A stretch of DNA of 64,000 nt, taken from positions 2,312,462-2,376,461 of the forward strand of contig NZ_CP017448.1 of the NCBI RefSeq assembly GCF_001753165.1. Reading direction: 5' to 3'. The notes below the pieces were generated by a model. It did no database searches. It was not told the origin of the DNA and saw only the letters and a program-made list of their open reading frames with translations. The position numbers and the translations under genes are program-made. The stretch's first letter is position 1, and each line of letters opens with the position of its first letter. This document shows, one piece after another, positions 1-22,933 of this stretch. This DNA is from Acidihalobacter aeolianus. GTDB lineage: Bacteria > Pseudomonadota > Gammaproteobacteria > DSM-5130 > Acidihalobacteraceae.

Positions 1-1141
1 CTGTGCCAGCCAGGGCCACCAGTTGATAGGTCTGGCGATCATCCGTAAGCACGCTCCCGACGGGTGCACGAGCAAGCATACGGCCCACTGCCAGATCGAT
101 GCGGGCAGCCTCATCGTGACCAGCGACGAGCAGATGTCGCATGTTCGGTACGGCAACGAGCCATTGGAGAAGCACTGCCACAAGCAGGGTCGTATGCCCC
201 CAGCCGGAGACTCGCCGCGGCATGCTGGTAACCGCAAACAGCGTGAACAAGGCCGCCACCGCCGCATTGCTGGCCAGCCCCAGCGTCGGTGAAAAAACGA
301 TCATGATCAGCGGTACCAGATGCACCAGCAGGCGCAGCGGCGAACGAAACAGTAACAACAGCGCCGTGCCCCAGTAGATGGGAGCCGCCCACAGCCAATC
401 CGCGAAAAATGCCTTGTGGAAATACAGCGCTGGATAGGCAAAGGCCACTTGTCCCGTAAACAGCCAGGATAGATAAGCCCAGATGCCGAGTGCAGCCATG
501 GTCGGAAATGCCAGAACGCCGGCGGCCGCCAACAATGCACGCCATGGGTAGCCAGGGGAAAAAAACGGCAGCAGGATGACGAATGCAGGCAGAAAGTACA
601 GCGCCGAAGGCGTTGCCAAAAATGCCGCCGAGAGCCACAAGCCCGCCTGAAAGGCGTACACGATCTGCCTGTCGACGACATATTTTTCGTAATTCACGAA
701 AGAAAGGAACAGAAACAAGAAACCGAGCATGTCCGGCAGATCCTGCGTCGCCAGACGCAGGAATTCCGGATTGAAGAAGATACTGCTGGCAATCAACACG
801 ACCAACCAGCGGTTGAGATCGGTGCGCAACAATTCGCGCAGCAACAGCGTAGCCAGCAAGCCGGCAGTAGCCACGCTGATCAGCGCCAGCCAGGCAGGCG
901 AGTGCCCTGGCAGCAGCAACAAAAAAGGCAACGGCGGATACACGAAGCCGATGGACTCCAACCGTCCCGTCGCGATCACGAGATATGTCTTTTCGAGCAA
1001 AAACGCTGCTGTGTCGCTCAAGTAATGCTGCCGCAGCATGACTTCCGCCAACAGCGCATAGGGCAGCGTCAGCGCCGGCCACCAGAACCAAACGGGCCAA
1101 CGCGGCAGACTAACCGACCGACTTAGACTTACTGAGTCCAT
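1..1141 (-). CDS. Polytopic membrane protein, GT-C-like (partial, runs off left edge)
   Basis: The reading frame is open from an ATG at 1141 to the window edge, about 380 codons with no stop. It overlaps the end of the upstream glycosyltransferase gene by 32 bases. The protein is almost entirely hydrophobic, with roughly eight or more membrane segments. An early loop carries the motif GFVYPPLPF, and the visible C-terminal part is soluble. Such a layout (a loop with acidic residues, then YPP, then many helices) is common in GT-C type, lipid-sugar dependent transferases, but no catalytic signature is decisive. Its place as third gene after the BcsB-like and GT2 genes suggests a role in assembling or modifying that polysaccharide; this is inference. 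The longer-looking ORF at 111-1100 in another frame is a shadow. Confidence 0.7.
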   Translation of the reverse strand, partial: MDSVSLSRSVSLPRWPVWFWWPALTLPYALLAEVMLRQHYLSDTAAFLLEKTYLVIATGRLESIGFVYPPLPFLLLLPGHSPAWLALISVATAGLLATLLLRELLRTDLNRWLVVLIASSIFFNPEFLRLATQDLPDMLGFLFLFLSFVNYEKYVVDRQIVYAFQAGLWLSAAFLATPSALYFLPAFVILLPFFSPGYPWRALLAAAGVLAFPTMAALGIWAYLSWLFTGQVAFAYPALYFHKAFFADWLWAAPIYWGTALLLLFRSPLRLLVHLVPLIMIVFSPTLGLASNAAVAALFTLFAVTSMPRRVSGWGHTTLLVAVLLQWLVAVPNMRHLLVAGHDEAARIDLAVGRMLARAPVGSVLTDDRQTYQLVALAGT

Positions 1142-2942
1142 GGTGGGTTTTTTCCCAGTAGAACGGCCGGGTCATCAGCTGCCACAGCCCCTTGTACGCG
1201 GCGACACTGTGTAGCAGCCAGTAAAACGGATTGGTTAGACTGAAAATCAACAGCCCATACAGCCTGCGCTTGAACACCGCCAGCATGGACAGATAGATGC
1301 CAAAGGCATTGCCGACCAAGAGATTGAACAACCCTACGTACAGCACCCAGGACGGGAAATAGGCATCGAGCGCGTGCGTGTCCGTGGCCAGCCAGATGAA
1401 ATACAGCACCACCGTAGGCAGGTAAGCCAGAAACGCGACGGGTGTACCGCCGATCAACAGGGCGAAACCCAGAGCCTGCTTGAGTCCCACACTGCGTAGC
1501 AGGCGCAGCGGATGACGACCGTGTACCAGCGCCGTCTGCATGTAGCCCTTGATCCAACGTGAACGCTGGCGAATCCAGTTCGGGATATGGTTATTGGCCT
1601 CCTCCATGGTCGTCGAATTGACGATGCCGACGCGGTAGCCAAGTGCGGTGGCGCGGATGCCCAGATCCGCGTCCTCGGTCACGTTGAAGGGGTCCCACCC
1701 CGCCAGTTCACGCAAACGGTCGACGCGAAAATGATTGCTGGTACCGCCGAGCGGGATCGGTAGGCGCAACTTCTGTAGCCCTGGCAGCATGTAATCGAAC
1801 CAATACGAATACTCCAAGGTAAACATGCGCGTCAGCCAGTTCTCGTCGGCGTTGAAATAATTCAGCGCCGCCTGCACACAGACCAAGTTTTCCGGCCCCT
1901 CGCGAAACGCTACCAGTACCTTCTTGAGCTGATCCGGGTCAGGAATGTCCTCTGCGTCGTAGATCACCAGATATTCCCCACGCGCAAAAGACAGCCCGAC
2001 GTTGCACGCCTTCGGTTTGGTCTTGGGCAGCGCGTGCGGGATGCGCACCAAATGCACGAAATCGGGCGGCCGCCCCAGCAGGGCCGCGTCCCAAGTTTCG
2101 TCATCGTCCTCCTCGATCAGGATCAGGATTTCGAGCTTGGCTGAGGGGTAATCCAGCGCTGCCACATGCTCCATCACGCGATTGACGATGCCTGCCTCGC
2201 GATAAACGGGCACCAACACCGTGTAGAAAGGCAGCTCATCGTCCTGCAACTCGGCCACCTGCTCGTCCGTGATGTCGATGTCGTTTTCGGCGAACGCGCC
2301 CGCCATGCCCAAGCCGAACTTGAACACCACGTTTACAAAGAAAAACAGCGTGACAAGCACATTCAGGCCGATCAACGTCGCGGTTGGATGTTGCACCAGT
2401 GCCAGGAAGCCCCCCACGATCAATACGGCCATGGCGACGTACTGCGACACCGTCAGCACCGTGTACGCCGACACTTCCTGATGCTGGGTATACAGACCGT
2501 AAACCGAACGCTCCAGGATGATCTGGCGATAACAGCGACGCAGATAGCGGTCGATGTCCCAGTGCGTCGTCACCCAGTATGCAGGTTCGACATCGGGATA
2601 ATGTGCCGCCAGCGCGGCGGCGAGTTCCGGGCCAGGCAACTCGGCCGTGGCCACGCGCAATCGGCCGTCGCTTTCGCCCAAAACCACCGCGCGGAACGAT
2701 ACCGCCTCGTCCAGCGGCCAAGCCGATGTCGTGGCGCAGGCCTCGTCATCGAGGCGCAAATAAGGCATCCCCCATAGCGTGGACAACGCCTGATACAAGT
2801 CCTCGCGCTTGACCAGTGACAGCGCCAACAGGATCTCGCCCAACCGTTCGCCGCTCTGCGTCTGCACCTGCAGAGCGTAGTCGAGGTCCTGCTGTGCGAG
2901 CGTGCCCTGCGCGACCAGATAATCGCCGAGGCGTACGATCAT
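1110..2942 (-). CDS. Family 2 glycosyltransferase with N-terminal MshEN (c-di-GMP-binding type) domain
   Basis: This 610-residue protein probably polymerises or starts an exopolysaccharide at the inner membrane. Residues 4-56 match the MshEN domain: RLGDYL...G...L..AL..Q at 4-27, a five-residue spacer, then a second RLG motif from 33. In MshE this double motif binds cyclic di-GMP. Membrane segments lie around 165-205 and in the last 150 residues. The GT2 domain covers about 240-470, with DAED (329-332), TED (422-424) and QRSRW (459-463), so the processive-synthase signature is complete. The ATG overlaps the stop of the BcsB-like gene by 4 bases, which suggests translational coupling. E. coli NfrB is a relative with the MshEN domain at the other end. 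The function as a c-di-GMP-gated synthase is inferred; the substrate is unknown. Confidence 0.92.
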   Translation of the reverse strand: MIVRLGDYLVAQGTLAQQDLDYALQVQTQSGERLGEILLALSLVKREDLYQALSTLWGMPYLRLDDEACATTSAWPLDEAVSFRAVVLGESDGRLRVATAELPGPELAAALAAHYPDVEPAYWVTTHWDIDRYLRRCYRQIILERSVYGLYTQHQEVSAYTVLTVSQYVAMAVLIVGGFLALVQHPTATLIGLNVLVTLFFFVNVVFKFGLGMAGAFAENDIDITDEQVAELQDDELPFYTVLVPVYREAGIVNRVMEHVAALDYPSAKLEILILIEEDDDETWDAALLGRPPDFVHLVRIPHALPKTKPKACNVGLSFARGEYLVIYDAEDIPDPDQLKKVLVAFREGPENLVCVQAALNYFNADENWLTRMFTLEYSYWFDYMLPGLQKLRLPIPLGGTSNHFRVDRLRELAGWDPFNVTEDADLGIRATALGYRVGIVNSTTMEEANNHIPNWIRQRSRWIKGYMQTALVHGRHPLRLLRSVGLKQALGFALLIGGTPVAFLAYLPTVVLYFIWLATDTHALDAYFPSWVLYVGLFNLLVGNAFGIYLSMLAVFKRRLYGLLIFSLTNPFYWLLHSVAAYKGLWQLMTRPFYWEKTHHGLSKSKSVG

Positions 2943-4879
2943 GAGCCTGCCGGCCCGCCTTTACGTACCAATCGCGGATACAACCAGACCAGAATCGCAA
3001 CCACAAGCAAGCCGAACAGCACGATGAACCAGTAGCGATACTGCTGCCAGAAAACATCCGGGCGCACCGGCAACGGTTGAATTTCCAGGCCCTTACCCAT
3101 CATGCGCGCCTGTACCGGATGTCCCGATACGCCTTGCAACACCGTATCTCCGTGCAACTCGTACCAACCGGCACCCACCAGGGCGCGACTCAGCAAGGCT
3201 GCGCGCAGCTTCGGCGGGCCTGCCAGCACGAGAGTCTGTCCGTAGGCTTCCAGTGCTGCGAAGCGCGAACCCGGCACATAGCGCAGCAACGTTTTACCCT
3301 CGGTATCACGCAGTTCGAACGGCTTGATCTGTAGGAACGCGCTGGACGGCGCGGTTTCACCCACGTAAAGCACCGGCCCCGAATCGGGCAACTTGCCGAC
3401 AACCATCGGGTGCAATTGCATCCGAACCGTTTTCTGCATAGCCTCGAGCAGGGCAACCGCCTGGGCCAGATCGGTGCGGTTATCGCTCTGCAGATAGACC
3501 GGCATTTTCTGCGCGAAGGCCACTGGGAAACGATCGAAACCACCGGGCAAGCTGTCGCTACGATTAAACTGTAAATAACTTGCGTTCCGCACCATGCCCA
3601 TGAACGGCAACGAACCCTGGGTGCAATTGCCCCCGCCCGGCGTGTAGGCGAAAGAAAGCTGCACCACGTTGTCACGCTTCATCAGTCCGGCAGGCACCGA
3701 CGCATAGAAATCGTAGCGTGTGCCATCAATCGGTTGGGCATAAATCGCCACACCGTTGAACTTGACGCTGATATAACCGCTCGCATGCTCCGGCAAGGGA
3801 CTATTCACCCCGGCAAACCGAACCGCCATGTCCTTGACTGCCCCCCCGAGATCAGTCTGCGAAAAGCGATATGTCACATTCAGGGTGCCCACGCCCTGCA
3901 CCTGCTCGTCGGGATAACCGAGTTGTGCGAAAGTCGTCTTGTCCTGTGCGACCTCGGCAGGGTTCTGCACCGATACCGCCAGATCGGTGGCGCTGGTCAC
4001 TGCCATCGCCGGCATCAAGCGTGCGTGGCGAAATACAGCCTGGGTAGCCATGACCGGGTCAGGGCCCAGCTGCAGCGCTAAATAGGTATGGCGGTTATCG
4101 GCAGCGTCAAGGCGCACTACGCCCAGCTGGGTGCCACCAAGAATCACCGTTCGCGAGAATGCAGGATTCGGCGGCATCCTGCGCTTGTCCACCAATACGA
4201 TGCGCGGCGGCACTGCATAGCGATGGGTGATGTAAGAAGCGACGTCGAGCACCGCCTGCGCGTCGCCGCTCCCGAGCATTTCGGGTACGACGATATACAC
4301 CGTCTTCAAGTAAACGGGGAAAAACTGGTTGATTGGCGGCACACCGGCCTGCGGTTTCTGTGTAAATGAAAGCACGCTATCCGGCCCAATATCCATCCAG
4401 TTGCCGGCCATGGCCTGGCAGACATTGGGATTGTCCACCACCATATGAATTTCCAGCGGCACCACACCGTCAACCGGCATCGCTCCCATTAAGGGCACCG
4501 ACCACACGCTGGTCTCTGTCCTCGGAATACTTTCCTCCGCTAGCACCCGATGATTGCTCTCGATCCATAGCTTGCCAGTCGGCATCTCAGGTGCAAAACG
4601 CAGGTGTAACTGCAACGTAGCAGCCTTCAACGAAGGATTTTCGGGCAAATAAAGCGTTTTCACCGCGTCCGCGCCCTGCAGTCGGATACCGTCAGGTTGG
4701 CCGATATCCTGCAGCGTCAGCGAAACCACATCGCTTGGTGTGGCCTGATTCGCGGCCGCCGACAATGCAGTAGTTGCCGCCAAAGCGGATGGCATCGACA
4801 GTTGAATCAATAAAATCCCGCAGGCAAGGCTACCGATCAATTTCGGCAGCCCACGCACAAATCCGTGGGTATGGTTCAT
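2939..4879 (-). CDS. BcsB-like periplasmic polysaccharide synthase subunit
   Basis: A 646-residue protein with an N-terminal signal/membrane segment (to about residue 35), a long periplasmic part and one C-terminal membrane helix followed by a basic tail. This is the layout of BcsB, the periplasmic partner of cellulose synthase BcsA. BcsB-type features include the jelly-roll region with LHLRFAPEMPTGKLWIESN-like text near the start and the block around VDNPNVCQAM. I place the start at 4879, because AGGA lies 7 bases upstream; ATG 4885 is in frame but too close to it. No BcsA, BcsC or BcsZ is visible. Instead the next gene, overlapping by 4 bases, is the MshEN glycosyltransferase, which probably takes the BcsA role. 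The polymer need not be cellulose. Confidence 0.85.
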   Translation of the reverse strand: MNHTHGFVRGLPKLIGSLACGILLIQLSMPSALAATTALSAAANQATPSDVVSLTLQDIGQPDGIRLQGADAVKTLYLPENPSLKAATLQLHLRFAPEMPTGKLWIESNHRVLAEESIPRTETSVWSVPLMGAMPVDGVVPLEIHMVVDNPNVCQAMAGNWMDIGPDSVLSFTQKPQAGVPPINQFFPVYLKTVYIVVPEMLGSGDAQAVLDVASYITHRYAVPPRIVLVDKRRMPPNPAFSRTVILGGTQLGVVRLDAADNRHTYLALQLGPDPVMATQAVFRHARLMPAMAVTSATDLAVSVQNPAEVAQDKTTFAQLGYPDEQVQGVGTLNVTYRFSQTDLGGAVKDMAVRFAGVNSPLPEHASGYISVKFNGVAIYAQPIDGTRYDFYASVPAGLMKRDNVVQLSFAYTPGGGNCTQGSLPFMGMVRNASYLQFNRSDSLPGGFDRFPVAFAQKMPVYLQSDNRTDLAQAVALLEAMQKTVRMQLHPMVVGKLPDSGPVLYVGETAPSSAFLQIKPFELRDTEGKTLLRYVPGSRFAALEAYGQTLVLAGPPKLRAALLSRALVGAGWYELHGDTVLQGVSGHPVQARMMGKGLEIQPLPVRPDVFWQQYRYWFIVLFGLLVVAILVWLYPRLVRKGGPAGS

Positions 4880-5200
4880 CGCCATGTCCTAAATGTCGCT
4901 GGATGGATGCTTGATTGTTATTGCTTAGTTATTGGTTCCGGTTGGAGCTTGTATCTTGTGGAGCGAGTAATACCACATGTACTACCCAACCCGTTGGAGG
5001 CACTAAAAGAGCACCGGCGGCACCGACGAATACGCGATGCCTAACCGATTTGCATGAAGCCCCACGTGACGCAAACGACCAGAACACCAAGTCAGTATCG
5101 CAGCGATACCGCGTATGGCGGAGACTTATAAATCATGCCCGCTAACACTAACCGATATTTTTTGTCCAGCACAACTGTTAATTACGGGTTATCACCACAA

Positions 5201-5639: not shown

Positions 5640-6938
5640 GCAGGCTGTTGAAAATTCCCCCGATTTAGCGGTTATCATGTTGATCAGGGTCCATTGGCGA
5701 CGTGCCCCTTCGGATCTGGGGCCTGATTTTTCCCGAAAACAGCCCAAATCCCGATCTCTGGGCGCACCGATCCCTTGATGTGTGCCTTCAACATGCTGCC
5801 AGTCCCAGATTGCGCATCCGCACCAGGTTGTAGGCCGCCGCGCTGAGCACAAACTGGAAATCCAGTTTCTCGCGTCCGACAAACCGACTTTTGCGCAGAC
5901 CCGCAATGGTCTTGAGCCAACCGAAGCATTCTTCGATCCGCTTGCGGATCGTCAGGCTGGTTCGGTAACCGGGATGGCCGATGGTGCGCCCGTCGATGGC
6001 CGAGCGGCGCCCGGCCGTGTTCTGAGCCACATGCGGCGTGACGTTTCGTCCACGCATCGCCGCCACAAAGCCTTGCGTGTCATAGTTCTTGTCCGCGCCC
6101 AGCGTGATCCGGTGGCTCCCGCCGAGCGCGTCGACAAGCTCGACACCGGCCTCGCGCTCGGCCGTGCCGGTGGCCTGGCTCGTCTGCGACTCGACGATCA
6201 GGCCGTGGCGGTTTTCCATCAGCAGGTGTCCGAGGTAGCTGAGCTTGGCGGTCGTGCCTTCGCTCTTGCGATACAGCAAGGCATCCGGGTCGGTCCTGGA
6301 GACGTGCGTTTCCCGACACCGCTTCTGCCCGCGAAAGTCCACCGTGGGATTGCGCCCGCCACCGCTCGGCGGCGCGTCCTCGTCCCGGGGCCGGTAGCTC
6401 TTGTGCGAGGCCAGCGCTTCGATCAACGTGCCATCGACGCTGAAGTGTTCGCTAGACAGCAGATCGGCCGCACGGGCCTGATCCAGCACCCGGGCGAAGA
6501 AGGTGCGGGCCACATCGCCTGCAAGCAGGCGGTCACGGTTCTTGGTAAACGTGGAGTGGTGCCAGACCGGATCGTCCATGGAAAAGCCCACAAACCAGCG
6601 AAACAGCAGGTTGTAGTCGATCTGTTCGACCAACAGGCGTTCGCTGCGGATGGTGTAGAACGCCATCAACAGTTGCGCGCGCAGCAGCTTCTCCGGCGGG
6701 ATCGAGTCACGGCCCATATGGGCATACAGCGCATCGAAGTCAGCGTCGAGTTCTTTGAGCGCTTGATCGACCATCCGCCGGATCGGGCGCAGAGGATGGT
6801 CCTTCGGCACCCGTTGCTCCGGGCTGACCGTGCTGAACAGCCCATCCTGATGTATGTCGGCACCGCGCATCGGCCACAACCCTCACTCAACAATACAAAA
6901 CCAATCTTCCGGGTTTACAGGACTTTTTCAACAGCCTG
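5640..6938 (-). mobile_element. IS5/IS1182-type insertion sequence
   Basis: About 1.3 kb bounded by inverted repeats CAGGCTGTTGAAAA (5641-5654) and its complement (6925-6938), around one transposase gene. If base 5640 is counted as part of the element, ATA flanks both ends (5637-5639 and 6939-6941) as a 3-bp target duplication. Joining the flanks without the IS gives AGGA, then 7 bases, then the ATG of the sulfotransferase at 6942. The element therefore appears to have separated that gene from its ribosome binding site. Confidence 0.85.
5788..6879 (-). CDS. IS5/IS1182-type DDE transposase
   Basis: A 363-residue transposase with an N-terminal region typical of IS5/IS1182-type enzymes (FSTVSPEQRVPKDHPLR) and a DDE catalytic core: HFSVDGTLIEA carries the first Asp near the middle, LGADKNYD the second, and RIEECFGWLKT the Glu. 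It appears intact and could still be active. It lies wholly inside the inverted repeats at 5641-5654 and 6925-6938. Confidence 0.9.
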   Translation of the reverse strand: MWPMRGADIHQDGLFSTVSPEQRVPKDHPLRPIRRMVDQALKELDADFDALYAHMGRDSIPPEKLLRAQLLMAFYTIRSERLLVEQIDYNLLFRWFVGFSMDDPVWHHSTFTKNRDRLLAGDVARTFFARVLDQARAADLLSSEHFSVDGTLIEALASHKSYRPRDEDAPPSGGGRNPTVDFRGQKRCRETHVSRTDPDALLYRKSEGTTAKLSYLGHLLMENRHGLIVESQTSQATGTAEREAGVELVDALGGSHRITLGADKNYDTQGFVAAMRGRNVTPHVAQNTAGRRSAIDGRTIGHPGYRTSLTIRKRIEECFGWLKTIAGLRKSRFVGREKLDFQFVLSAAAYNLVRMRNLGLAAC

Positions 6939-7707
6939 ATAATGCCTCATCACACTCAGGCTCCCATATTCATACATTCATTGTTTCGCTCGGGAAGCAC
7001 ATGGATTTTTGAAAAATTTCGTGCTTCGCCAGCCGGTTACTGGTGTTACCAGGAGCCTTACCATGAAGCCTTGCTGCAGTTGAACACGAATCCAGAATCG
7101 CTTCTCTCCTATTCTGAAGAAACTGCACTGTCGCTTCGACATCCGAGCATGACCGCACCTTATTTCCGGGAGTTCTATGACATAAAGGAGAAATTGACCG
7201 GCAAGTTCGACAAGTGCATCAGCTACGACAGCTTCTTCGACCCTCAAACTTGCCCCGCCATCTTCCCGTATACCGAGACATTAATTGCTGAAGCCAAAGG
7301 CAATCCGGTGCTGCAGTGCTGCAGATCGTTCGGCAGAGTCACCCCGCTTAAAGAACAATTCGGAGGAACGCACATCCTGCTTTGGCGCGACCCGGTCAAT
7401 CAGTGGCTTTCATATCAGATAAACGACTATTTTGACGCGACCAGCCTCGCCATCATCAATGCACAAAATCCCCCAGTCATCATTCAAAGACTACGCCAGG
7501 AAATCGGATTCAACGAAGTCCACGCAGAAAATGTTCAGAGCGAGTTCGCTGCGTTTTCCGAGGCATCGCTGGATGCCGGTCAAAAGTATTTGATCTTTTA
7601 TGGACTCTGGCTTTACCACCTGCTGGAAAACCAACCTCTTTGCGAAGCCGAAATTAATTTAGACATGCTGTCACGCAGCGAAGAATATGTGGCAGGCAAA
7701 ACCACAG

Positions 7708-9411
7708 GTAACTACTCAGTGAAAATAATTACAAAAAGTACTTGACAGGGTTTTTGGTAGTTTTTTTGAAAATATGGCGGCGCTGTAACGAGTGCGATTA
7801 TTGGTCTCCGAAAGCGACAGAGGCGTAGTCTTCCTTGCGACATCACGCGAGGCACTGCCCCACCGTCAGTCAATTATTTTACGCCGCCAGATCGCCTTAC
7901 AAACGAGAAAATTGGCACTTCAAAACCCGTGAGATAATAGCTTCATTACTTCTTTGGAGCAGTCTTGCGTGCGGATCGACGGCGTCGATATCGAGATCAC
8001 CCTGGCACAGGTCAGGGCGCAACTGGAGCAGGAGAAAGACCTATCTCCGGCACTCCGCGCCAGTATCGAGATGATGCTCATGTTGTTCGTCGTGTTACTC
8101 AACCGTCTCGGGCTCAATAGCCGCAACAGCAGTCAGCCGCCGGCATCGGATCCCAATCGGCCACGCAGCCAGCGTGTGCGCTCAAGCCGACCTTCCGGTG
8201 GCCAGCCGGGGCACGTGGGCAAGACCTTGCGCCCGGTCGAGCATCCCGATGAGATCGAGGTCCTCAAGATCGATCGTCGTCGCTTGCCGAAAGGCTGCTA
8301 TACCGAGGCGGGTTTCGAGACTCGCCAGGTTTTTGATATCGACATCAGCCGGATCGTGACCGAGTATCGGGCGCAGATCCTGGAGAATGAATCAGGCCAA
8401 CGTTTTGTGGCTTCATTCCCGGAAGGGGTGGATAAGAAGGTGCAGTATGGTTCCGGCCTCAAGGCCCATGCCGTCTATCTGTCCCAATATCAGCTCTTGC
8501 CCTACAAGCGGATCCAGGATTACTTTGCCGATCAGTTGGGCATCCCTTTGAGCGATGGTTCACTGGTGAACTTCAATCGCGAGGCATTTACCCGCCTGGC
8601 GGCCTTTGAGGCGATCAGCAAAACGGCATTGGCCAAAGCCGTGTCCGCTCATGCCGACGAGACCGGGGTCAACATTGATGGCAAACGCCATTGGCTGCAT
8701 GCTCTGTCCAATGCTGATTGGACGCATTATCAGGTCCACAGTAAGCGAGGCCAGGAGGCGATGGACGCGATCGGGATCCTGCCACGGTTCCGCGGTGTGC
8801 TGTGTCATGACCATTGGAAACCCTATTACCGTTATCGGGACTGCACCCATGCCCTGTGCAATGCCCACCACCTGCGCGAACTGGAACGAGCATTCGAGCA
8901 GGACGGACAACAATGGGCGGAAGCGATGGGCAAGCTGCTCAGAGAGATTCATCAGGCCGTCGAGAACGCTGGCGGCATCCTGCCGCTGACCGAGGCCAAT
9001 GCTTACCGGCAGCGCTACCGAGATGTGCTCGAGGCGGGGCAACTGGAATGCCCTGAGCCGGAAAAACCACCCGACAACAAGCCTCGGGGGCGGATCAAGC
9101 GGAGCAAGGCCCGCAATCTGCTGGAGCGTCTGATGGCCTATGAAGACGATGTGCTGCGTTTCATGGTGGACGTCAATGTGCCGTTCACGAACAATCAGGC
9201 GGAGAACGATATCCGTATGACCAAAGTGCAGCAGAAGATCTCCGGCTGCTTCCGCAGCCTGGAGGGTGCCGCGATGTTTTGCCGCATACGGGGATATCTA
9301 TCGACCTGCCGAAAGCAGGGGGTCACGGCTTCGGAGGCGTTGCGCCTAGTATTCGATCGCAAGCTACCGGCTTTTGCTCTGGCGATCTCTGAGAATTAGC
9401 TGAGTAGTTAC
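7708..9411 (+). mobile_element. IS66-family element with perfect 8-bp target duplication
   Basis: The 1704-bp element starts GTAACTACTCAG (7708-7719) and ends with the exact complement (9400-9411). The sequence AACCACAG stands immediately outside both ends (7700-7707 and 9412-9419), an 8-bp target duplication as expected for IS66. It carries a transposase gene only, without tnpA/tnpB helper genes, which fits the ISBst12-like branch of the family. The perfect duplication and inverted repeats suggest recent insertion. Confidence 0.95.
7954..9399 (+). CDS. IS66-family transposase
   Basis: A transposase of up to 481 residues. It has a coiled-coil N-terminal part, a Pro/Arg/Ser-rich stretch (about 65-95), and a DDE domain with ADETGVNIDGKRHWLH and, near the C-terminus, VPFTNNQAENDIRMTKVQQK, which contains the catalytic Glu region typical of IS66. 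The start is uncertain: TTG 7954 gives the full length, but GGAG at 7956-7959 would better serve a GTG at 7969. The stop lies 1 base inside the right inverted repeat. Confidence 0.92.
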   Translation: MEQSCVRIDGVDIEITLAQVRAQLEQEKDLSPALRASIEMMLMLFVVLLNRLGLNSRNSSQPPASDPNRPRSQRVRSSRPSGGQPGHVGKTLRPVEHPDEIEVLKIDRRRLPKGCYTEAGFETRQVFDIDISRIVTEYRAQILENESGQRFVASFPEGVDKKVQYGSGLKAHAVYLSQYQLLPYKRIQDYFADQLGIPLSDGSLVNFNREAFTRLAAFEAISKTALAKAVSAHADETGVNIDGKRHWLHALSNADWTHYQVHSKRGQEAMDAIGILPRFRGVLCHDHWKPYYRYRDCTHALCNAHHLRELERAFEQDGQQWAEAMGKLLREIHQAVENAGGILPLTEANAYRQRYRDVLEAGQLECPEPEKPPDNKPRGRIKRSKARNLLERLMAYEDDVLRFMVDVNVPFTNNQAENDIRMTKVQQKISGCFRSLEGAAMFCRIRGYLSTCRKQGVTASEALRLVFDRKLPAFALAISEN

Positions 9412-9984: not shown

Positions 9985-10533
9985 CTATCTCTCGAACACC
10001 TCGGCCTTGCCCAGCGCGACACCATCCTTATCCTTGCCCGAAAGATTGAACGGCCCTTCCCCCGGCCAGTCGATGCCGATGTCAGGGTCATCCCAGATGA
10101 TGCATCGCTCGAATTCGGGCGCGTAGTAATCCGTCGTCTTGTACAGAAATTCGGCATGCTCTGAAAGCGTGACGAAGCCATGGGCGAAACCCGGCGGCAC
10201 CCATAATTGGCGTTTGTTATCGGCAGATAACACCTCACCCACCCAGTGGCCGAAGGTCGGTGAATTGCGGCGGATATCCACGGCCACGTCGAACACCTCG
10301 CCGACCACCACACGCACCAGCTTCCCCTGCGGCTGCTGAATCTGGTAATGCAGACCGCGCAGCACATTACGCGCCGAACGTGAGTGATTGTCCTGCACGA
10401 AATCGACGGAACAACCCACGGCTTCCTCAAAACGTTTACGGTTAAAGCTTTCGAAGAAAAAACCTCGTTCATCACCGAATACCTTCGGCTCGATCAACAC
10501 GACGTCGGGAATCGACAAACGGGTGGCCTGCAT
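9985..10533 (-). CDS. rfbC: dTDP-4-dehydrorhamnose 3,5-epimerase
   Basis: RmlC/RfbC inverts C3 and C5 of dTDP-4-keto-6-deoxyglucose in dTDP-L-rhamnose synthesis. The 182-residue length is normal for the family. The cupin motif RGLHYQ with the catalytic His62 is present, preceded by DERGFFFESF and the DNHS segment. It is the last gene of the rfbBDAC operon, starting 21 bases after rfbA. A decayed second copy of its 3' half lies at 22598-22932. The stop is about 40 bases from the convergent end of the broken sulfotransferase gene. Confidence 0.96.
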   Translation of the reverse strand: MQATRLSIPDVVLIEPKVFGDERGFFFESFNRKRFEEAVGCSVDFVQDNHSRSARNVLRGLHYQIQQPQGKLVRVVVGEVFDVAVDIRRNSPTFGHWVGEVLSADNKRQLWVPPGFAHGFVTLSEHAEFLYKTTDYYAPEFERCIIWDDPDIGIDWPGEGPFNLSGKDKDGVALGKAEVFER

Positions 10534-10554
10534 GATTCGAACCCCTTGGATTGA

Positions 10555-11439
10555 TTAACGAACGCCGTCGTTGAGAATGTGCAAAAGATACTTGCCGTAG
10601 CCGTTCTTCTGCAGCGGCTGCGACAGGGCCTCCAATTGTTCGTCCGAAATCCACCCCTGCCTCCATGCGATCTCCTCCGGGCAGGAAACCTTGAGCCCCT
10701 GCCGCGACTCGATGGTGGCGATGTATTGCCCGGCATCCAGCAATGAATCGTGGGTCCCAGTATCCAGCCAGGCATAGCCGCGACTCATGACCTCCACGCT
10801 CAACTGACCCTGCAGCAGATATCGGTTGTTGAGGTCGGTGATCTCCAGCTCGCCGCGCGCCGATGGCTTCAGGCCCTTGGCGAACTCGACCACCTGATCG
10901 TCATAGAAATATAGGCCCGTCACCGCATAATTCGATTTCGGGCGTGCCGGCTTTTCCTCCAGCGACAGCACCTTGCCGTCGTCGTCGAATTCGGCCACCC
11001 CGTAACGCTCCGGATCCTGAACGTGGTAGACGAACACGCTCGCACCCTCGGTGCGCGCATCCGCGTCCTCCAGCAGGTTTTGCAGGTCATGTCCGTAGAA
11101 CAGGTTGTCCCCGAGCACCAACGCGCTCGGCGAATTCCCGATGAAAGGCTCGCCGATCAGAAAGGCCTGGGCCAGTCCATCGGGCGAATCCTGCACCGCG
11201 TAGCTCAGATTCAAACCCCATTGTGCGCCGCTGCCGAGCAACTGCTCGAAGCGTGGCGTGTCCTGGGGCGTTGAGATGATCAGAATGTCGCGGATACCTG
11301 CCAGCATCAACGTGCTCAAGGGGTAGTAGACCATCGGCTTGTCATAAACCGGGAGGAGCTGCTTGCTGACCGCCAGTGTCGCCGGATGCAGCCGCGTACC
11401 CGAGCCCCCCGCCAGAATAATGCCCTTGCGTTGTGTCAT
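10555..11439 (-). CDS. rfbA: Glucose-1-phosphate thymidylyltransferase
   Basis: RfbA/RmlA makes dTDP-glucose from glucose-1-phosphate and dTTP, the first step to dTDP-L-rhamnose. The 294 residues carry the nucleotide-binding motif GGSGTRL (11-17), the LGDNLFYG segment and the EEKP motif of sugar nucleotidyltransferases. It is the third gene of rfbBDAC, 25 bases downstream of rfbD. Confidence 0.97.
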
Positions 11440-11464
11440 CGGCTTCCCATTCCTGAGTTTTGAA

Positions 11465-12355
11465 TCAAAGAATCTCGCTCAACATGCGCGCGACACCTTG
11501 CTGCCAGGGCGGCAATGCCAGCCCGAAATCCGCCTGCAGTTTCGAGGTATCCAGCCGCGAATTGTGCGGGCGCTTCGCCGGCGTCGGAAAGGCCGAGGTC
11601 GGCACTGGATCGACGGCCTCCGCGCCGGCCTTCAGCGTCGCCCCCAGCTCAAGCGCGCTGGCAATCACGAACCGCGCATACGCGTTCCAGGTCGTCGTGC
11701 CACCTGCCGCAAGATGGTAAATGCCGCGCAGACGGCTGTTTCCCATCGCTTGACTGACAGCATGTGCGGTGACGTCCGCAATCAGCTCCGCACCCGTCGG
11801 CGCGCCGAACTGATCGTCGATCACCGTCAAGCGCTCGCGCTCGCCGGCCAGGCGCAACATGGTCTTGGCGAAGTTGCCGCCGCGCGCCGCATACACCCAG
11901 CTGGTGCGGAAGATCAGATGGTTGGACGTCAGTGCGGCAATCGCCCGCTCCCCTTCCAGCTTGGTGCGACCGTACACGCTCAGCGGCGCCACCGGGTCGG
12001 CTTCACGCCATGGCGTTTCCCCATCGCCGGCAAACACGTAGTCGGTGGAGTAATGCACCAGCAGCGCACCCAGACGCTTGGCCTCGTGCGCGAGCACACC
12101 GGGCGCCAACCCATTGACCGTGTGCGCCAGCTCGGGCTCGCTCTCGGCCTTGTCCACCGCGGTATACGCCGCGGCATTCACGATCACGCCAGGGCGCACC
12201 TGCCGCACGGTTTCGGCAATCCCATCGAGATCGGACAGGTCGCCGCAGTAATCCGCGCCATGTCGGTCGAGCGCGACCACCTCGCCCAGCGGCGCGAGGC
12301 TGCGCTGCAGTTCCCAGCCCACCTGCCCGTTACGGCCCAGCAGCAGTATTTTCAT
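11465..12355 (-). CDS. rfbD: dTDP-4-dehydrorhamnose reductase
   Basis: RfbD/RmlD reduces the 4-keto group in the final step of dTDP-L-rhamnose synthesis. The protein has the Rossmann motif GRNGQVG (7-13), the STDYVFAG segment and the catalytic YGRTK. I start it at ATG 12355, giving 296 residues, 2 bases after the rfbB stop. The frame is open 31 codons further up, but that extension lies inside rfbB and has no family similarity. Confidence 0.96.
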
Positions 12356-12357
12356 GC

Positions 12358-13422
12358 TCAGGCCCGCTCGGCGTAGTTGGTCTCCAGCCAGTTGCGGTAG
12401 GCGCCCGACTGCACGCCCTCCACCCAGTCGCCATGCTCCAGATACCACTCGACCGTCTTGCGGATACCGGTCTGGAAGGTTTCGGCCGGACGCCAGCCCA
12501 GCTCGCGCTCGATCTTGGTCGCGTCGATCGCATAACGCCGGTCGTGCCCCGGGCGGTCGGTCACATAGGCGATCTGTCCCGCGTAGGGCTTGCCGTCCGC
12601 ACGCGGGCGCAGTTCGTCCAGCAGTCCGCAGACGATCTTCACGATCTCGATATTCGGCATCTCGTTCCAGCCGCCGACGTTGTAGACCTCACCCACCTGC
12701 CCCGCTTCGAGCACGCGGCGGATCGCACTGCAATGATCCTTCACGAACAGCCAGTCGCGAATCTGCATGCCGTCGCCGTATACGGGCAGCGGCTTGCCGG
12801 CCTGGGCATTGACGATCATCAGTGGGATGAGCTTTTCCGGGAAGTGATAGGGCCCGTAATTGTTCGAACAATTGGTGGTGAGCACCGGCAGGCCGTAGGT
12901 GTGGTGATACGCGCGCACCAGATGATCCGAAGCCGCCTTCGAGGCCGAGTACGGACTGTTCGGCTCGTAGCGATGGGTCTCGGTGAAGGCCGGCGCATCG
13001 GCGTCCAGCGAACCGTAAACCTCGTCGGTGGACACGTGCAGAAAACGGAATGCCTGTTTGGCTGCCGCATCCAGCCCGCCCCAGTAGCCCCGCACCGCCT
13101 CCAGCAGCTGGAAGGTGCCGACCACGTTCGTCTGGATGAAATCGCCGGGTCCGTGGATCGAGCGGTCGACATGCGACTCGGCGGCGAAGTTCACCACCGC
13201 ACGCGGCTGATAACGCGAAAGCAGATCGCTCACCAGCGCGAAATCGCCCATATCGCCATGAACGAAGATATGGCGCTCATCGCCCTCAAGGCTGGCAAGG
13301 TTCGCCAGATTACCCGCATAGGTGAGCTTGTCGAGATTGATTACCGGCTCATCGTTCTGCGCCAGCCAGTCGAGCACGAAGTTAGAGCCGATGAAGCCGG
13401 CGCCGCCAGTCACGAGAATCAT
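12358..13422 (-). CDS. rfbB: dTDP-glucose 4,6-dehydratase
   Basis: RfbB/RmlB converts dTDP-glucose to dTDP-4-keto-6-deoxyglucose with bound NAD. The 354 residues show the Rossmann motif GGAGFIGSN (6-14), the catalytic STDEVYG segment and YSASK. It is the first gene of the rfbBDAC operon; about 200 bases without recognisable features separate it from the end of the phosphohexomutase gene upstream. Confidence 0.97.
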   Translation of the reverse strand: MILVTGGAGFIGSNFVLDWLAQNDEPVINLDKLTYAGNLANLASLEGDERHIFVHGDMGDFALVSDLLSRYQPRAVVNFAAESHVDRSIHGPGDFIQTNVVGTFQLLEAVRGYWGGLDAAAKQAFRFLHVSTDEVYGSLDADAPAFTETHRYEPNSPYSASKAASDHLVRAYHHTYGLPVLTTNCSNNYGPYHFPEKLIPLMIVNAQAGKPLPVYGDGMQIRDWLFVKDHCSAIRRVLEAGQVGEVYNVGGWNEMPNIEIVKIVCGLLDELRPRADGKPYAGQIAYVTDRPGHDRRYAIDATKIERELGWRPAETFQTGIRKTVEWYLEHGDWVEGVQSGAYRNWLETNYAERA

Positions 13423-13624
13423 CTGGATAGTCCTTGGTTGAATTCGGTTTGTTCATAAGCCCCCTGTGGGTCGAGGCAGCATAACAGCATGAATCCACGC
13501 CGCTGAGTCTCTCTAGTTTCAGGTCCGACTCCTACAGAAACATGTTGCTTGAATAATCCGTTCACAGCACGAGTCCACAGCGGTTGTCGAGTAACGAAAG
13601 CCATCACCGTAATCCATCAGAAAC

Positions 13625-15073
13625 CTACCGCCACTGGGCCATCACGCCCATGGCCGCATCCAGAATGGATTGGGCCCGCTCCGGGCTATCCGCCTCGGTG
13701 TAGCAGCGCAACTCCGGCGCATTGCCGGACGGCCTGAGATGAACGATCTCGCCGTTCTCGAAGGACACGCGGATGCCATCGGTCAGATCCATGGACTCAG
13801 CCTGCCCGCAAATCTCACCGAATGCATCAGAAAACGCGCCCAGATTCTGTGCCTCGTCCGGGGTTCGAAAACGGTCCAGACATTCCCGCGCCCTGGCGAC
13901 GGGAAACTCCTGAAGCCGGTTACTGGCGGTATAGCGGGAAGGCAAGGCCGACAAAAGGCCCGACAAGGGGAGATCTTGCTGTTTGGCTTGCGCCAATACA
14001 GTGAGCATGGGCAAAAATGCATCCCGGGTCGGCAAGGGGGCCAAGACGCGGTCGCCCTGGTGTAAAGCGCTCCCCAGCAGGAAGCCTCCATTGGCCTCGT
14101 ATCCACCCGCCGACGACGCCCCCCTATCCACCTCGGCTTGCATCGCCTCAATCACGAAAGGCGACCCGATTCGGGTGCGCGACACACGCTCGAAAGCCTG
14201 TGTGCGCTCAAGCGCGGTGTTGCTGCTCACCGGTGTAACCACAGACTGCACACCCAGCGCCTGCGCCACGATGATGCCCAGCACATCGCCTCGCCACCAA
14301 GCGCCTTGTTCGTCTGCGATCATGGGCCGATCCGCATCGCCATCCGTGGTCAACAAGGCATCGAGCGAATATTCTTCAACCCAGTTTTTGGCCAGGGCCG
14401 CGTCTTCCGGGCGCAGCGCTTCGGTATCCAGCGCCACGAACTCATCCGACCTGCCCAGTGCTATCACCTCGGCGCCGAGCGCCTCAAGCAACTGGGGCAA
14501 TAAGTCACGCGCCACACCGGAATGCTGGTACACCCCCAGTCGCAGACCAGTAAGACTGCCCTCACCGAAGAAGTCGCGATAGCGCCGCAAATATGCGGTC
14601 ACCCACTGCTCAACGGGCAAAGGAAGCTGTGGTGCATCACGCAAGCCACCATCGCTATCGAACAGCGTCGAATCCAGCACCGGCAGGCGTTCAAGAATCC
14701 CCGGCTCATCGCTCTTCATCAACTCGCCCGTGGGGCGATTGAACTTGATGCCGTTGCGATCGAACGGGATATGGCTTCCGGTAACCATCAGCGACGGCAC
14801 CTTGCGGGAAAATCCGGCCAGCGCGAGGGCGGGAGACGGCAAATAGCCCGCAAAGGAAGGCACGCCTCCGGCGGTCTCCACAGCCGCCCAGGCCGCGCGC
14901 AGCAGACGGGGCGTACTCGGCCTGAGATCGCCGCCGAGTATCACCTGACCACCGGCGTCGAACTCACCGACATCTTTCAGATATTGCAGAAACGCCACGA
15001 CATGGCCAAAGGCCACCGCATCGGTCAGTTCGCTCACCAACCCACGCAGACCACTGGTGCCAAATGCAACCAT
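13625..15073 (-). CDS. manB: Phosphomannomutase/phosphoglucomutase
   Basis: This enzyme interconverts hexose-6-phosphate and hexose-1-phosphate. With ManC (32959-34413) it would feed GDP-mannose to Gmd. The 482 residues carry all four family loops: the phosphoserine loop VTGSHIP, the metal-binding loop TDGDADRP, the sugar-binding loop GGYEANGG (a variant of the usual GEESG), and the phosphate-binding loop RPSGNAPELR near the C-terminus. A strong AAGGGG ribosome binding site precedes ATG 15073. The altered sugar loop leaves open whether mannose, glucose or glucosamine phosphate is preferred. Confidence 0.9.
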   Translation of the reverse strand: MVAFGTSGLRGLVSELTDAVAFGHVVAFLQYLKDVGEFDAGGQVILGGDLRPSTPRLLRAAWAAVETAGGVPSFAGYLPSPALALAGFSRKVPSLMVTGSHIPFDRNGIKFNRPTGELMKSDEPGILERLPVLDSTLFDSDGGLRDAPQLPLPVEQWVTAYLRRYRDFFGEGSLTGLRLGVYQHSGVARDLLPQLLEALGAEVIALGRSDEFVALDTEALRPEDAALAKNWVEEYSLDALLTTDGDADRPMIADEQGAWWRGDVLGIIVAQALGVQSVVTPVSSNTALERTQAFERVSRTRIGSPFVIEAMQAEVDRGASSAGGYEANGGFLLGSALHQGDRVLAPLPTRDAFLPMLTVLAQAKQQDLPLSGLLSALPSRYTASNRLQEFPVARARECLDRFRTPDEAQNLGAFSDAFGEICGQAESMDLTDGIRVSFENGEIVHLRPSGNAPELRCYTEADSPERAQSILDAAMGVMAQWR

Positions 15074-15136
15074 GCTTTACCCCTTTCTCCCAACGATTCT
15101 TTGCATCGTGATCACCGCGCATCGACCACGGCGGCT

Positions 15137-16675
15137 TTAGTCAGCCGAGCTGATTTTCCCTAAAAAATCGGCCCATTGCGGCAGAACTTTCTCAGGTAGA
15201 TAGCACGAGCTTTGCAGCTGCCCTTGCTCGCGCAAGGCTGCCAATTGGGCATCGGCGTCCACAGAAAACGCCATGTTCTGCAAGGCAGCGACCAAGCTGC
15301 CCGTATCGTAAGGGTTGAAATACGCAGCCGCGTCGCCGTAAACCTCGCGATGAACCGGGATATCCGAGGCCGCAACCACACCGCCGCAGCGCATGGCCTC
15401 CACCCCGGAAAAATCGAAGCCCTCGCCCACGCTGGGGCACACGGTCACGAGCGCCTGGCGATACAACACGCGCAGCGCGTCCGCCGGCACGTTCTGCAGC
15501 ATGAAAAGCCCGCCCTGCTCGATCCAGGTTTCGCACGCCGGTAGCAAATCCTTGTAATCACAGCCGATATGTCCAACGAACACCAGCTTGATGTCCTTGT
15601 CCAGTCGATCGCGCAATACCTCCCAGGCCTCCAGCAGACGGCGATGATTCTTGCGCGGTTCGATGGTCGATACCATCAACAGAAAACGGGTTTGCGGGTT
15701 AAAGGTCTGTTCGTAAAACGCCGTTTTATCCGCCTCGCCGCCAAACTGCCGCGACAGCCGATAAACCCGGTCATTTTTCTTGGACAGCGGCGGCTTGAAT
15801 TCGCCTATCTGGTAGCGGCGCATGATCCCGGCCAACCGTTCCGGCTCGGGCTCGGACGGGTAGTAATGCGCAGGCAGCATGTTGTGGATGGTCACCGAAC
15901 GCGGCTCAGCCTCAGGGAAAAGGCTCAGCAGGTCCTGCCGCGTTGCCTCCGAAACGCAAACGAAGTGCGCGCCATCGCGCACATTCGCCGCCAGCGCGTT
16001 GAAGTGGCTTGCTTCATGAAACGCCCGGTCGGATATCGTATGCGGCATCAACACAGGGATCGCATCGTGGTAATGCACCACCAGCTTCGTCTTGCCCGAG
16101 AGACGGGCCGGGTACGGCGTCTGGGCAATGAACAGATCGAACTCAGCCGCATCGAGCTTCGGATATCCGGATGCCCTCATCAAGGATTTACGCTCGATAC
16201 CGGCAAGATGCATCCAGCGCCAGGGTGAGGCGCAGACCCGGTGATCGCAGGCAAGAATCCTCTCGCGCTCTTCGCTCGGCACACTGCGGGCAAACAGTGT
16301 CTGCCAGATAAAATCCTCGAAAAATTTCGTCTCGAATTGTTTGAGCCCGACAGCACCCACGCCAAAATAAGCGGCCAGGCGCAAACGCCAGTGCTCTACT
16401 TGCTCTTCGATAAAGCCAGCCAAACCGGCCTTCCAGTCGACAGAGGCACTACCCTTGAGCGAAACGACCGTTCTGGAATACCGATGCACCTGCTCCGCCA
16501 CCGACATCTTCTGGTGCGGTGTCACGCCTCCCAGGGTCATGCGCTTGGACATCTGCAACAACCCGCTCAGCTCAATCTCAGGCAGGCCGGCCAAGGCACT
16601 GAACAGCAGCCGGGTTTCCTGCGGGATACCGAAATGTCCGTCCAGGGCTGGACGCAGTTCCATCAATAAGCGCAT
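15137..16675 (-). CDS. Family 4 glycosyltransferase
   Basis: A 512-residue GT-B fold enzyme. The C-terminal half has the GT4 features: VSTIEPRKNHRRLLEAW, then VCPSVGEGFDFSGVEAM with the E-x7-E type nucleotide-sugar site, and the usual GDAAAYFNPYD segment. It resembles rhamnosyl/mannosyltransferases of O-antigen and capsule loci. Its place beside rfb, gmd and manB suggests that it adds rhamnose or a GDP-derived 6-deoxyhexose. Parts of this gene (16091-16329 and the 5' end) recur at 22934-23238. Confidence 0.92.
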   Translation of the reverse strand: MRLLMELRPALDGHFGIPQETRLLFSALAGLPEIELSGLLQMSKRMTLGGVTPHQKMSVAEQVHRYSRTVVSLKGSASVDWKAGLAGFIEEQVEHWRLRLAAYFGVGAVGLKQFETKFFEDFIWQTLFARSVPSEERERILACDHRVCASPWRWMHLAGIERKSLMRASGYPKLDAAEFDLFIAQTPYPARLSGKTKLVVHYHDAIPVLMPHTISDRAFHEASHFNALAANVRDGAHFVCVSEATRQDLLSLFPEAEPRSVTIHNMLPAHYYPSEPEPERLAGIMRRYQIGEFKPPLSKKNDRVYRLSRQFGGEADKTAFYEQTFNPQTRFLLMVSTIEPRKNHRRLLEAWEVLRDRLDKDIKLVFVGHIGCDYKDLLPACETWIEQGGLFMLQNVPADALRVLYRQALVTVCPSVGEGFDFSGVEAMRCGGVVAASDIPVHREVYGDAAAYFNPYDTGSLVAALQNMAFSVDADAQLAALREQGQLQSSCYLPEKVLPQWADFLGKISSAD

Positions 16676-16801
16676 ATCGTCTCTTCGTTCAAATCACTGG
16701 AAGGCCAGCAAATAATATTTCCGTGATAGCACACCGAATCTGCAATGGGCGATGGCTGATCACATCCTGCGTGCTCGACCACTGAATCCCATGAATACCC
16801 A

Positions 16802-18592: not shown

Positions 18593-18769
18593 AACCGCAT
18601 CTCCTCTCAAACTTTCAAACTTCGCGCTCAGTTATGACGAGTATGGCCGCAATCCACGAGATCACCCTTCCAAGGGGCGCACCAAACGCAAGAGGGCGCT
18701 TAGCGTTACTAATGGCTTCCCATGTTACGGAATCGATTTATTCGCTTTGATGAATCATGTGCCCATGAA

Positions 18770-19654
18770 TCAATTTTCCAGCATCCAACGCAACGTCTCC
18801 TCAAGCGGAATGCCAGGCTGGAAACCTGTGTACTTGAGTAGGTTTGAATGATCCCCCACCAATTTCGGCACTTCATTTGCACGGACAAAAGCAGGATTAA
18901 CACGCACCTCAAGCCGATGCCCACTCAGTGTTGAAACCTTCTCCAACACATCACGCAGCGCATAGGCGCGCCCCGAGCAGATATTGACGGTCTGCCCTAT
19001 CGCATCCTGAGAAGTCAGCAATCGAGCATACACTTCAGCCACATCGCGTACATCGCTGAAGTCTCGCGCCACATCGAGATTACCCAGCTCAATCGCTTCT
19101 GCACGGCGTTTGAAGTGCGACACGATTTTCGGGATCAAGAATTTCTCGTCTTGCCCCACGCCCGTATAGTTAAACGGTCGCACCAGCACGATCGGTAAGC
19201 GATCGCACCAAGTCCGCACCATGTGCTCCATTGCCAGTTTGCTGTTGGCATAATGATTCACAGGCCCCGGACACACCGATTCGTCCAGTACCTCAAGCCC
19301 CGGCGTACCGTAGACATTGGCCGAACTGGCAATAATGACCCGCTCGGGCGCAGCCGGTAGTTTCGCCAAGGCCTCAAGCAGGTTAAGGGTGCCAAACAGA
19401 TTCACGTCGTAAAATGCGCGCGCATCGCCATGGCCGACAAAGGACAGCGCCGCCAGATGAACCACATAGGTCGGCGCGTAGGCAGCAATGATTTCGGCCA
19501 ACTCATCCCTGCGCGACAGGTCGCCACTGACCTCGTCCGCGGCATTGGCCGGCCCCTGCACAAGCCCCAGCACGTCCATACCCAGTGCGCGAAGCCGTTC
19601 GGCGACATAGACGCCGGTAAACCCACGGTATCCCGTTATCAGAACTTTAGTCAT
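18770..19654 (-). CDS. rmd: GDP-4-keto-6-deoxy-mannose reductase type SDR
   Basis: A 294-residue extended SDR with GYRGFTGVY at the N-terminus (NAD(P)-binding) and HYANSK holding the catalytic Tyr and Lys. It starts 5 bases after the stop of gmd, so it very likely uses the Gmd product. Likely products are GDP-D-rhamnose (Rmd) or GDP-6-deoxy-D-talose. A fucose synthase (WcaG) is less likely because the typical WcaG text is missing. The stereochemistry cannot be settled from sequence by eye. Confidence 0.85.
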   Translation of the reverse strand: MTKVLITGYRGFTGVYVAERLRALGMDVLGLVQGPANAADEVSGDLSRRDELAEIIAAYAPTYVVHLAALSFVGHGDARAFYDVNLFGTLNLLEALAKLPAAPERVIIASSANVYGTPGLEVLDESVCPGPVNHYANSKLAMEHMVRTWCDRLPIVLVRPFNYTGVGQDEKFLIPKIVSHFKRRAEAIELGNLDVARDFSDVRDVAEVYARLLTSQDAIGQTVNICSGRAYALRDVLEKVSTLSGHRLEVRVNPAFVRANEVPKLVGDHSNLLKYTGFQPGIPLEETLRWMLEN

Positions 19655-19659
19655 GGGGT

Positions 19660-20697: not shown

Positions 20698-21362
20698 AAT
20701 TTGTTCAACCCCTAATAGTCACATTAGCTAACATACTATCAAAATGAACCACTGTGACGACATCATTTATCGATAGCGAAACTCGCTAACACGAAACCAA
20801 AAATAAAATGACATGAGCACATCCATACTCCAATCATTATTCGCATATACCAGCACAATACTCAGTAAGTATCCCCCGGCAAAGCCGGGGGCTTTAGTTG
20901 TGAACCGCTCAAAGCGGTCTAAAGACGGAGCCGCAAGCGGCTCCTTGAGCCCCCCAAGGGGGCTTACATCAGCCTCAACTGCTCTATTCGACGATCTTCG
21001 GCTTCCTGGTGCCGAATGTATTCTCGAATAACCTGTTCATCCCGACCTACCGTCGAGACGAAATACCCTCTTGCCCAGAAGCTCTGACCGACGTAGTTCC
21101 GTTTTCGACCTGCGTATACCCTGGCAATGTGGATGGCGCTCTTCCCCAACCACCTGCGACACGGCATACTTCGGCGGTATTGAAATCATCATGTGCACAT
21201 GATCAGGCATCAGATGCCCTTCCTCGATCTCGCTTTCTTTCTGCCTCGCCAGACGGCGAAAAACATCTCCCAGTTCCTTCCTGATCTGCCCGAATATCGC
21301 CTTCTTCCGATACTTCGGAATGAACACCACGGGGTACTTACACTCCCATCGAGTGTGACTTA

Positions 21363-22932: not shown

Positions 22933-22933
22933 T

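Follow-up and report, generated by a model that had tools for sequence, protein, structure and literature searches.

An MshEN-bearing glycosyltransferase with a BcsB-like partner in Acidihalobacter aeolianus: a candidate c-di-GMP-gated exopolysaccharide machine related to the twisted-stalk cluster

Twisted stalks of iron oxidisers, known for more than 150 years, have been proposed as a biosignature. A candidate gene cluster for them, sfz1-6, has been published for Mariprofundus (PMC8250860), and its 'xag-like' Ferriphaselus counterpart, sfb1-4, was earlier named bcsB-xagBCD (PMC4643136). In 2021 the N-terminus of Sfz2 was assigned to an EpsE-like type II secretion system (T2SS) domain (IPR007831) with a possible role in translocation, while sites for cyclic di-guanosine monophosphate (c-di-GMP) were sought in RxxD/RxxxR motifs (PMC8250860). 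The xag-type exopolysaccharide (EPS) locus is regulated by c-di-GMP through a receptor that was predicted and not yet identified (PMC4624772), fusions of MshEN with glycosyltransferases are already in print (PMC5013675), and the nfr cluster of Achromobacter includes a BcsB homologue (PMC8669472). Here we describe a three-gene operon at the start of a 64,000-nucleotide stretch of the A. aeolianus genome (assembly GCF_001753165.1, contig NZ_CP017448.1, positions 2,312,462 to 2,376,461), hereafter the window. The operon encodes a BcsB-like protein, a family 2 glycosyltransferase (GT2) with an N-terminal MshEN domain, and a membrane protein of predicted glycosyltransferase C (GT-C) fold, and it probably forms a synthase-dependent EPS machine gated by c-di-GMP through MshEN.

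The three genes lie on the minus strand in that order and overlap head to tail, the first junction being an ATGA overlap. The third gene crosses the window edge and continues for 215 further bases in the genome (whole open reading frame, L002:15786-17141, where L002 is the surveyed locus of this genome). The features of the operon, in window positions, are as follows:

2939..4885, minus: BcsB-like periplasmic partner, 648 residues (PF03170, profile of alignment A4 against 6YG8, hydropathy)
1110..2942, minus: MshEN-GT2 synthase, Sfz2/XagB-like, 610 residues (domain searches, structure matches)
1..1141, minus: membrane protein of predicted GT-C fold in the Sfz3/XagC position, 451 residues in full (AlphaFold model, fold matches in the PDB)
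2862..2933, minus: predicted c-di-GMP motif I, GT2 residues 4-27 (NF053729, in-register alignment to 5HTL)
2847..2861, minus: five-residue spacer TQSGE, GT2 residues 28-32 (near-constant length among relatives)
2775..2846, minus: predicted c-di-GMP motif II, GT2 residues 33-56 (alignment to 5HTL)
2523..2774, minus: MshEN C-terminal subdomain, GT2 residues 57-140 (PF05157, 4.3e-6)
1545..2225, minus: GT2 catalytic domain, residues 240-466 (PF13641, alignment A1, BcsA 4HG6)
1137..1163, minus: FYWEKTHHG segment, GT2 residues 594-602 (almost invariant in alignment A1)

The MshEN domain and its predicted c-di-GMP site

The initial annotation, made from the sequence alone, had recognised both halves of the MshEN motif in the first 56 residues of the GT2 and proposed a hidden Markov model search, which bears the domain out. 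The model NF053729 ('cyclic di-GMP-binding, MshE-related') matches residues 4-55 with 53.6 bits (cut-off 38, E 1.4e-14), and PF05157 (MshEN) matches residues 57-140 with 27.1 bits (cut-off 23.1); as a sequence match, this is far above chance. Motif I reads RLGDYLVAQGTLAQQDLDYALQVQ and motif II reads RLGEILLALSLVKREDLYQALSTL, separated by the five-residue spacer that had been noted, a length shared by nearly all relatives. Residues 4-117 align to residues 9-124 of 5HTL, the structure of MshE with bound c-di-GMP that served as the reference for contact residues (phmmer, 1.8e-8), with R4 placed on R9; PilB and PilF structures are also among the PDB matches. In this alignment 11 of the 12 contact residues are retained, comprising all of those in motif I (R4, L5, G6, L20, L24 and Q27) together with R33, L34, G35, L49 and L53 in motif II. 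The glutamine of motif II (Gln61 in MshE) is replaced by Leu56 and the turn Gly47 by Ser42, so that the second half of the annotated motif is imperfect.

The motif II glutamine hydrogen-bonds c-di-GMP, according to the roles described for MshEN contact residues (PMC5013675). In E. coli NfrB, motif I has PLG for RLG and Arg for Gln, and the protein still binds c-di-GMP with a dissociation constant of 1.0 uM (PMC8669469), which indicates that binding can survive the loss of a single contact. With one contact of twelve gone, binding of c-di-GMP by the window GT2 is likely. The same substitutions would suit a different role, in which MshEN is a degenerate scaffold for BcsB assembly or oligomerisation and the synthase is constitutive or otherwise regulated; relatives in GGDEF-free genomes keep the fold and the spacer and lose the site, which points to a structural role of the domain as well. 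We consider a purely scaffolding domain unlikely here, since 11 contacts are kept and the genome, at 3.5 Mb, has 57 GGDEF matches, since NfrB binds despite its worse motif I, and since many Chloroflexi relatives share the pattern, Leu for Gln included, which speaks for a variant site that is being maintained.

The T2SS assignment of Sfz2 offers a further interpretation, in which the N-terminal domain is an EpsE-like part that drives translocation (PMC8250860). The N-terminal family of T2SS-E (IPR007831, T2SSE_N) is the same family as MshEN, and PilB and PilF are among the structural matches, but the matching part is the c-di-GMP-binding N-terminal unit of MshE, PilF and PilB. The ATPase domain (PF00437) is absent from the GT2 protein; EpsE-type translocation was rejected on this ground and is highly improbable. 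The GT2 of M. ferrooxydans PV-1, which is Sfz2, itself matches NF053729 with 56.6 bits, and judged by this match the MshEN domain of the stalk-cluster GT2 has previously been overlooked as a predicted c-di-GMP site.

Synthase core, partner proteins and proposed mechanism

As had been annotated, MshEN stands at the N-terminus of a BcsA-like GT2 in which domain searches find no PilZ. PF13641 covers residues 240-466 (6.7e-23), and the glycosyltransferase part resembles BcsA (4HG6, residues 193-533, 5e-9). The DxD position reads DAED, and DAED, TED and QRSRW occupy invariant columns of a six-sequence alignment (A1), with flanking transmembrane helices present and an identity of 44-62% to relatives. 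The protein fails the equivalog models for CelA (TIGR03030, 52.1 bits against a cut-off of 699) and for NfrB (NF008411, 28.1 bits against 1170, with the match confined to the MshEN part). The FYWEKTHHG segment is possibly the counterpart of the BcsA gating loop; NfrB has WDKTTH ahead of its MshEN.

The BcsB-like identity of the partner was confirmed by PF03170 (29.9 bits, cut-off 21, E 2.5e-7), which matches all 26 of the 26 BcsB-like members in alignment A4, and by the A4 profile, which matches solved BcsB structures (6YG8 at 1.2e-18). Hydropathy indicates an N-terminal signal or transmembrane segment, periplasmic domains and a C-terminal transmembrane helix at about residues 614-641. For the third protein, annotated as a multi-spanning GT-C-like gene product, a sequence-profile search of the PDB returned nothing useful and fold comparison was used instead. 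The AlphaFold model of the 380 residues inside the window (predicted local distance difference test score, pLDDT, 88.6) has top PDB matches dominated by GT-C enzymes, namely Pmt4, ALG12, ArnT and PglB (probability 1.00, best E 2.3e-3, template modeling (TM) score about 0.5), and on this model the GT-C fold is well supported.

Two genes follow the operon in the genome. The first, on the minus strand directly after the GT-C gene (L002:14582-15751), encodes a secreted protein of 389 residues that occupies the BcsZ position as an orphan, having neither a PDB match nor a relative in the surveyed neighbourhoods; its only Pfam match, to a triosephosphate isomerase (TIM) barrel, is at chance level (E 0.09), so that a TIM-barrel class is just a guess. 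Glycosidases beside the operon vary by lineage among relatives, with GH113 and GH5 represented. The second gene, on the plus strand just outside the window (L002:13600-14538), joins by BLAST a family of outer-membrane barrels that occurs at 20 loci, exclusively in diderm phyla, either between BcsB and GT2 or downstream, and at none of 35 loci from Chloroflexota, Actinomycetota and Thermomicrobiota. An Aquificota member is modelled as a 12-stranded barrel (pLDDT 87.5) closest by fold comparison to the COG4313 channel 4RL8 (TM 0.78) and to FapF; a sequence-profile search of the PDB gave one weak match, again 4RL8 (0.001). The window genome's barrel and secreted protein are possible counterparts of the parts that the operon lacks.

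In the mechanism that we propose, c-di-GMP would dock on the four-helix MshEN unit of the GT2, as its residues suggest, and binding would free the membrane-embedded BcsA-like GT2, whose catalytic motifs are in place, to build a polymer from a sugar nucleotide; the chain, most likely beta-glucan-like, would pass through the enzyme's own channel. The adjacent BcsB homologue would contact the GT2 and guide the polymer through the periplasm, as BcsB does in cellulose synthase. The GT-C-fold protein, whose catalytic acid is not clearly conserved, may then decorate or modify the chain; known GT-C relatives act on the periplasmic side with polyprenyl-linked sugars. In diderms the 12-stranded outer-membrane barrel would serve as the exit, and the secreted protein, a glycosidase in relatives, might trim or detach the polymer.

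The operon might instead make a lipid-linked or cell-envelope glycan, such as a side chain of lipopolysaccharide or capsule, with the GT-C protein as the main transferase and no secreted polymer. The polysaccharide island around the operon, with its capsule-synthesis (PF05159), rml and GDP-mannose genes, fits this proposal, as do ArnT-type GT-C relatives that modify lipid A. The BcsB pairing and the BcsA-like processive motifs, by contrast, indicate a chain-extruding synthase, and the trio also occurs in Chloroflexi and at loci that lack such surrounding genes, which leaves an envelope glycan quite improbable.

Distribution, neighbourhood and erosion of the site

In a contig scan across genomes, from which 80 of at least 574 relatives were kept, the GT2 has relatives in at least 14 phyla. 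Where 1.5 kb or more of upstream sequence was present, BcsB stands beside the GT2, most often as the gene immediately ahead of it, at 48 of the 54 loci from outside Actinobacteria that could be tested (L039 and L081 among them being one and the same place), so that the neighbourhood survey suggested at the outset finds the pair conserved across phyla; a gene of the GT-C cluster is present in 59 of 86 loci. Of 274 genomes sampled from the window's own class, five apart from the window's genome have a full-length orthologue, all in the order BcsB-GT2-GTC. These five operons go on with glycosidase-like, barrel and CotH-like genes, mostly also with an ATP/ADP-carrier-like gene, the glycosidase-like and CotH-like names being taken from homologues in L071 (GH113, CotH). 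At 1e-40 the GT2 family is present in 89 of 398 Pseudomonadota genomes, many of the matches stopping short of the N-terminus. Relatives from the genus and family have no full-length orthologue, and the operon is therefore no lineage trait there. In the tree, the window GT2 groups with sequences from Thermus, Gemmatimonadota, Chloroflexota and Actinomycetota (100/99), apart from a gamma-Mariprofundus clade (100/98), a placement that suggests horizontal acquisition.

Directly upstream of the operon (window 5788-9399) lie a DDE transposase (DUF772), a 267-residue protein with no Pfam match, and an IS66-type transposase, possibly a sign of a mobile island. The polysaccharide island flanks the operon on both sides (L002:6579-12213 and window 9985-24899) and holds two Capsule_synth genes (PF05159), a family 1 glycosyltransferase, an epimerase, a FemAB-like gene, rml-type genes, a phosphomannomutase and GDP-mannose dehydratases. 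No Rfam RNA, c-di-GMP riboswitches included, was found in the window, and a GGDEF protein of 389 residues is encoded at window 60301-61470, about 56 kb from the operon. Elsewhere, CotH-kinase-like proteins are fixed in the gamma/zeta version of the operon (L039-L043, L071, L081, L090, L108 and L117), which may point to phosphorylation of the polymer or of a partner. In one relative (L018/L043), the GT2 N-terminus seems to carry an extra RLG...G repeat pair ahead of the usual one, with an unsure start codon.

Retention of the site was scored as the contact residues kept (0-6 scored) and compared with the number of GGDEF matches per genome. Every sampled genome with no more than one GGDEF (15 of 15) has an eroded site (score 0-1), and the score is at least 3 in 32 of 36 genomes with two or more (Fisher 1e-9, uncorrected for relatedness). 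Erosion affects Bacteroidota with Ignavibacteriota as one group and Microbacteriaceae as the other. NF053729 matches the tested relatives from Mariprofundus, gammaproteobacteria, Chloroflexi and Aquificota, and gives no match in the tested Mucilaginibacter and Salinibacterium relatives. In a Sporomusaceae locus, a diguanylate cyclase gene (L076:1535-2677) is the immediate upstream neighbour of BcsB and the second gene ahead of the GT2. In Bacteroidota with an eroded site, a histidine kinase gene precedes BcsB (L105:5620-6993; a gene of 448-457 residues at position -2 in Mucilaginibacter loci) and is perhaps a substitute control.

Besides the motif II substitutions, several findings weigh against a c-di-GMP-gated exporter of the proposed kind. 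The link between GGDEF and the site reduces to two independent contrasts once the tree is computed from columns outside the N-terminus, so that a sign test cannot reach significance, and we rejected the link as strong independent evidence; four loci (L066, L072, L088 and L103) have an eroded site in spite of GGDEF. A BcsB neighbour is found at 0 of 24 actinobacterial and 0 of 2 Thermomicrobiota loci, and BcsB is thus not obligatory. In the first periplasmic loop of the GT-C protein the best acidic column reaches 73% (E62) and none is invariant. The barrel gene of the window genome is convergent to the operon and not co-transcribed, and the barrel family is absent from 21 loci of the diderm Bacteroidota. 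The operon also contains no sugar-nucleotide gene that would indicate the identity of the polymer. With these points taken into account, we still regard a synthase gated through MshEN as the probable reading. The wider proposition, which we hold to be evenly balanced, is of a phylum-spanning class of c-di-GMP-gated exporters that has an N-terminal MshEN for PilZ, a periplasmic chain-modifying GT-C protein and a small FapF/COG4313-like 12-stranded barrel for BcsC, and that takes in the machine for the twisted stalks of iron oxidisers. If this is true, c-di-GMP bound to Sfz2 would act as a direct switch of stalk growth.

Comparison with known systems

The MshE, PilF and PilB ATPases and the window GT2 share the same N-terminal domain, with its 53-residue tandem motif in register, the carrier here being a glycosyltransferase instead of an ATPase. 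NfrB of the E. coli NfrB-NfrA system (phage N4 receptor glycan) is likewise a GT2 with MshEN, but its MshEN is C-terminal, NfrA is a tetratricopeptide repeat (TPR) porin, and the GT2 cores of NfrB and the window protein are only 23% identical. With BcsAB the window system has in common the BcsA-like GT2 core and the BcsB partner, c-di-GMP control being predicted for the window system. It differs in having an N-terminal MshEN where BcsA has a C-terminal PilZ, in the lack of an adjoining BcsC or BcsZ, in the extra GT-C protein, and in a small 12-stranded barrel in place of the TPR-containing BcsC. The initial annotation had stated that BcsA, BcsC and BcsZ were missing, which is correct for the neighbourhood; the genome, however, holds a complete canonical cellulose operon 550 kb away (G000:C1:2857597-2866800; L164:5598-14801), encoding a 1554-residue BcsA-BcsB fusion with PilZ, a GH8 BcsZ and BcsC. 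PilZ occurs at six places in the genome, all away from the window GT2. Two BcsB-type machines with different predicted c-di-GMP sensors thus coexist in a single genome, and PilZ and MshEN would be able to replace each other as sensors on synthases that work with BcsB.

We take the operon and the 'xag-like' sfz/sfb stalk cluster to be machines of one type. The operons of M. ferrooxydans PV-1 (L117) and M. erugo (L108) correspond to sfz1-6, the trio itself being sfz1-3, and share with the window the order BcsB, MshEN-GT2 and GT-C position, and the window GT-C protein is homologous to gamma-operon genes at 5e-12 to 0.007. The two differ in that GH113-type, CotH-kinase-like and ATP/ADP-carrier-like genes of sfz/sfb are not found beside the window operon; of the downstream genes sfz4 (glycosidase), sfz5 (barrel family) and sfz6 (CotH), it has nearby only the convergent member of the sfz5 family, along with the secreted protein that lacks a significant Pfam match. 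The GT2 proteins also fall apart, that of sfz/sfb in the Mariprofundus-gamma clade and that of the window in the Thermus/Chloroflexi/Gemmatimonadota/Actinobacteria group. XagABCD of Xanthomonas (PMC3609779), a c-di-GMP-regulated EPS locus, is related to the stalk-cluster genes and is the source of their 'xag-like' name (Kato et al., PMC4643136).

The annotation's separate kind of machine is accordingly retained as a separate variant and given up as a kind outside those described, since the fusions and the sfz/sfb set were already published. None of the findings that the annotation named as refuting it was obtained outright: the MshEN profile matches, a single contact residue is lost, and the neighbourhood is conserved across phyla. 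The parts are known separately in print; in the literature searched, no paper has both MshEN and XagB, and the present reading of their combination was not found. What emerges is a widespread new variant of synthase-dependent, c-di-GMP-gated polysaccharide export, in which ligand and polymer are predicted. It would provide the candidate twisted-stalk synthase with a predicted on/off site, making direct c-di-GMP control testable, and MshEN-GT2 becomes a candidate for the receptor predicted for xag-type EPS loci (PMC4624772).

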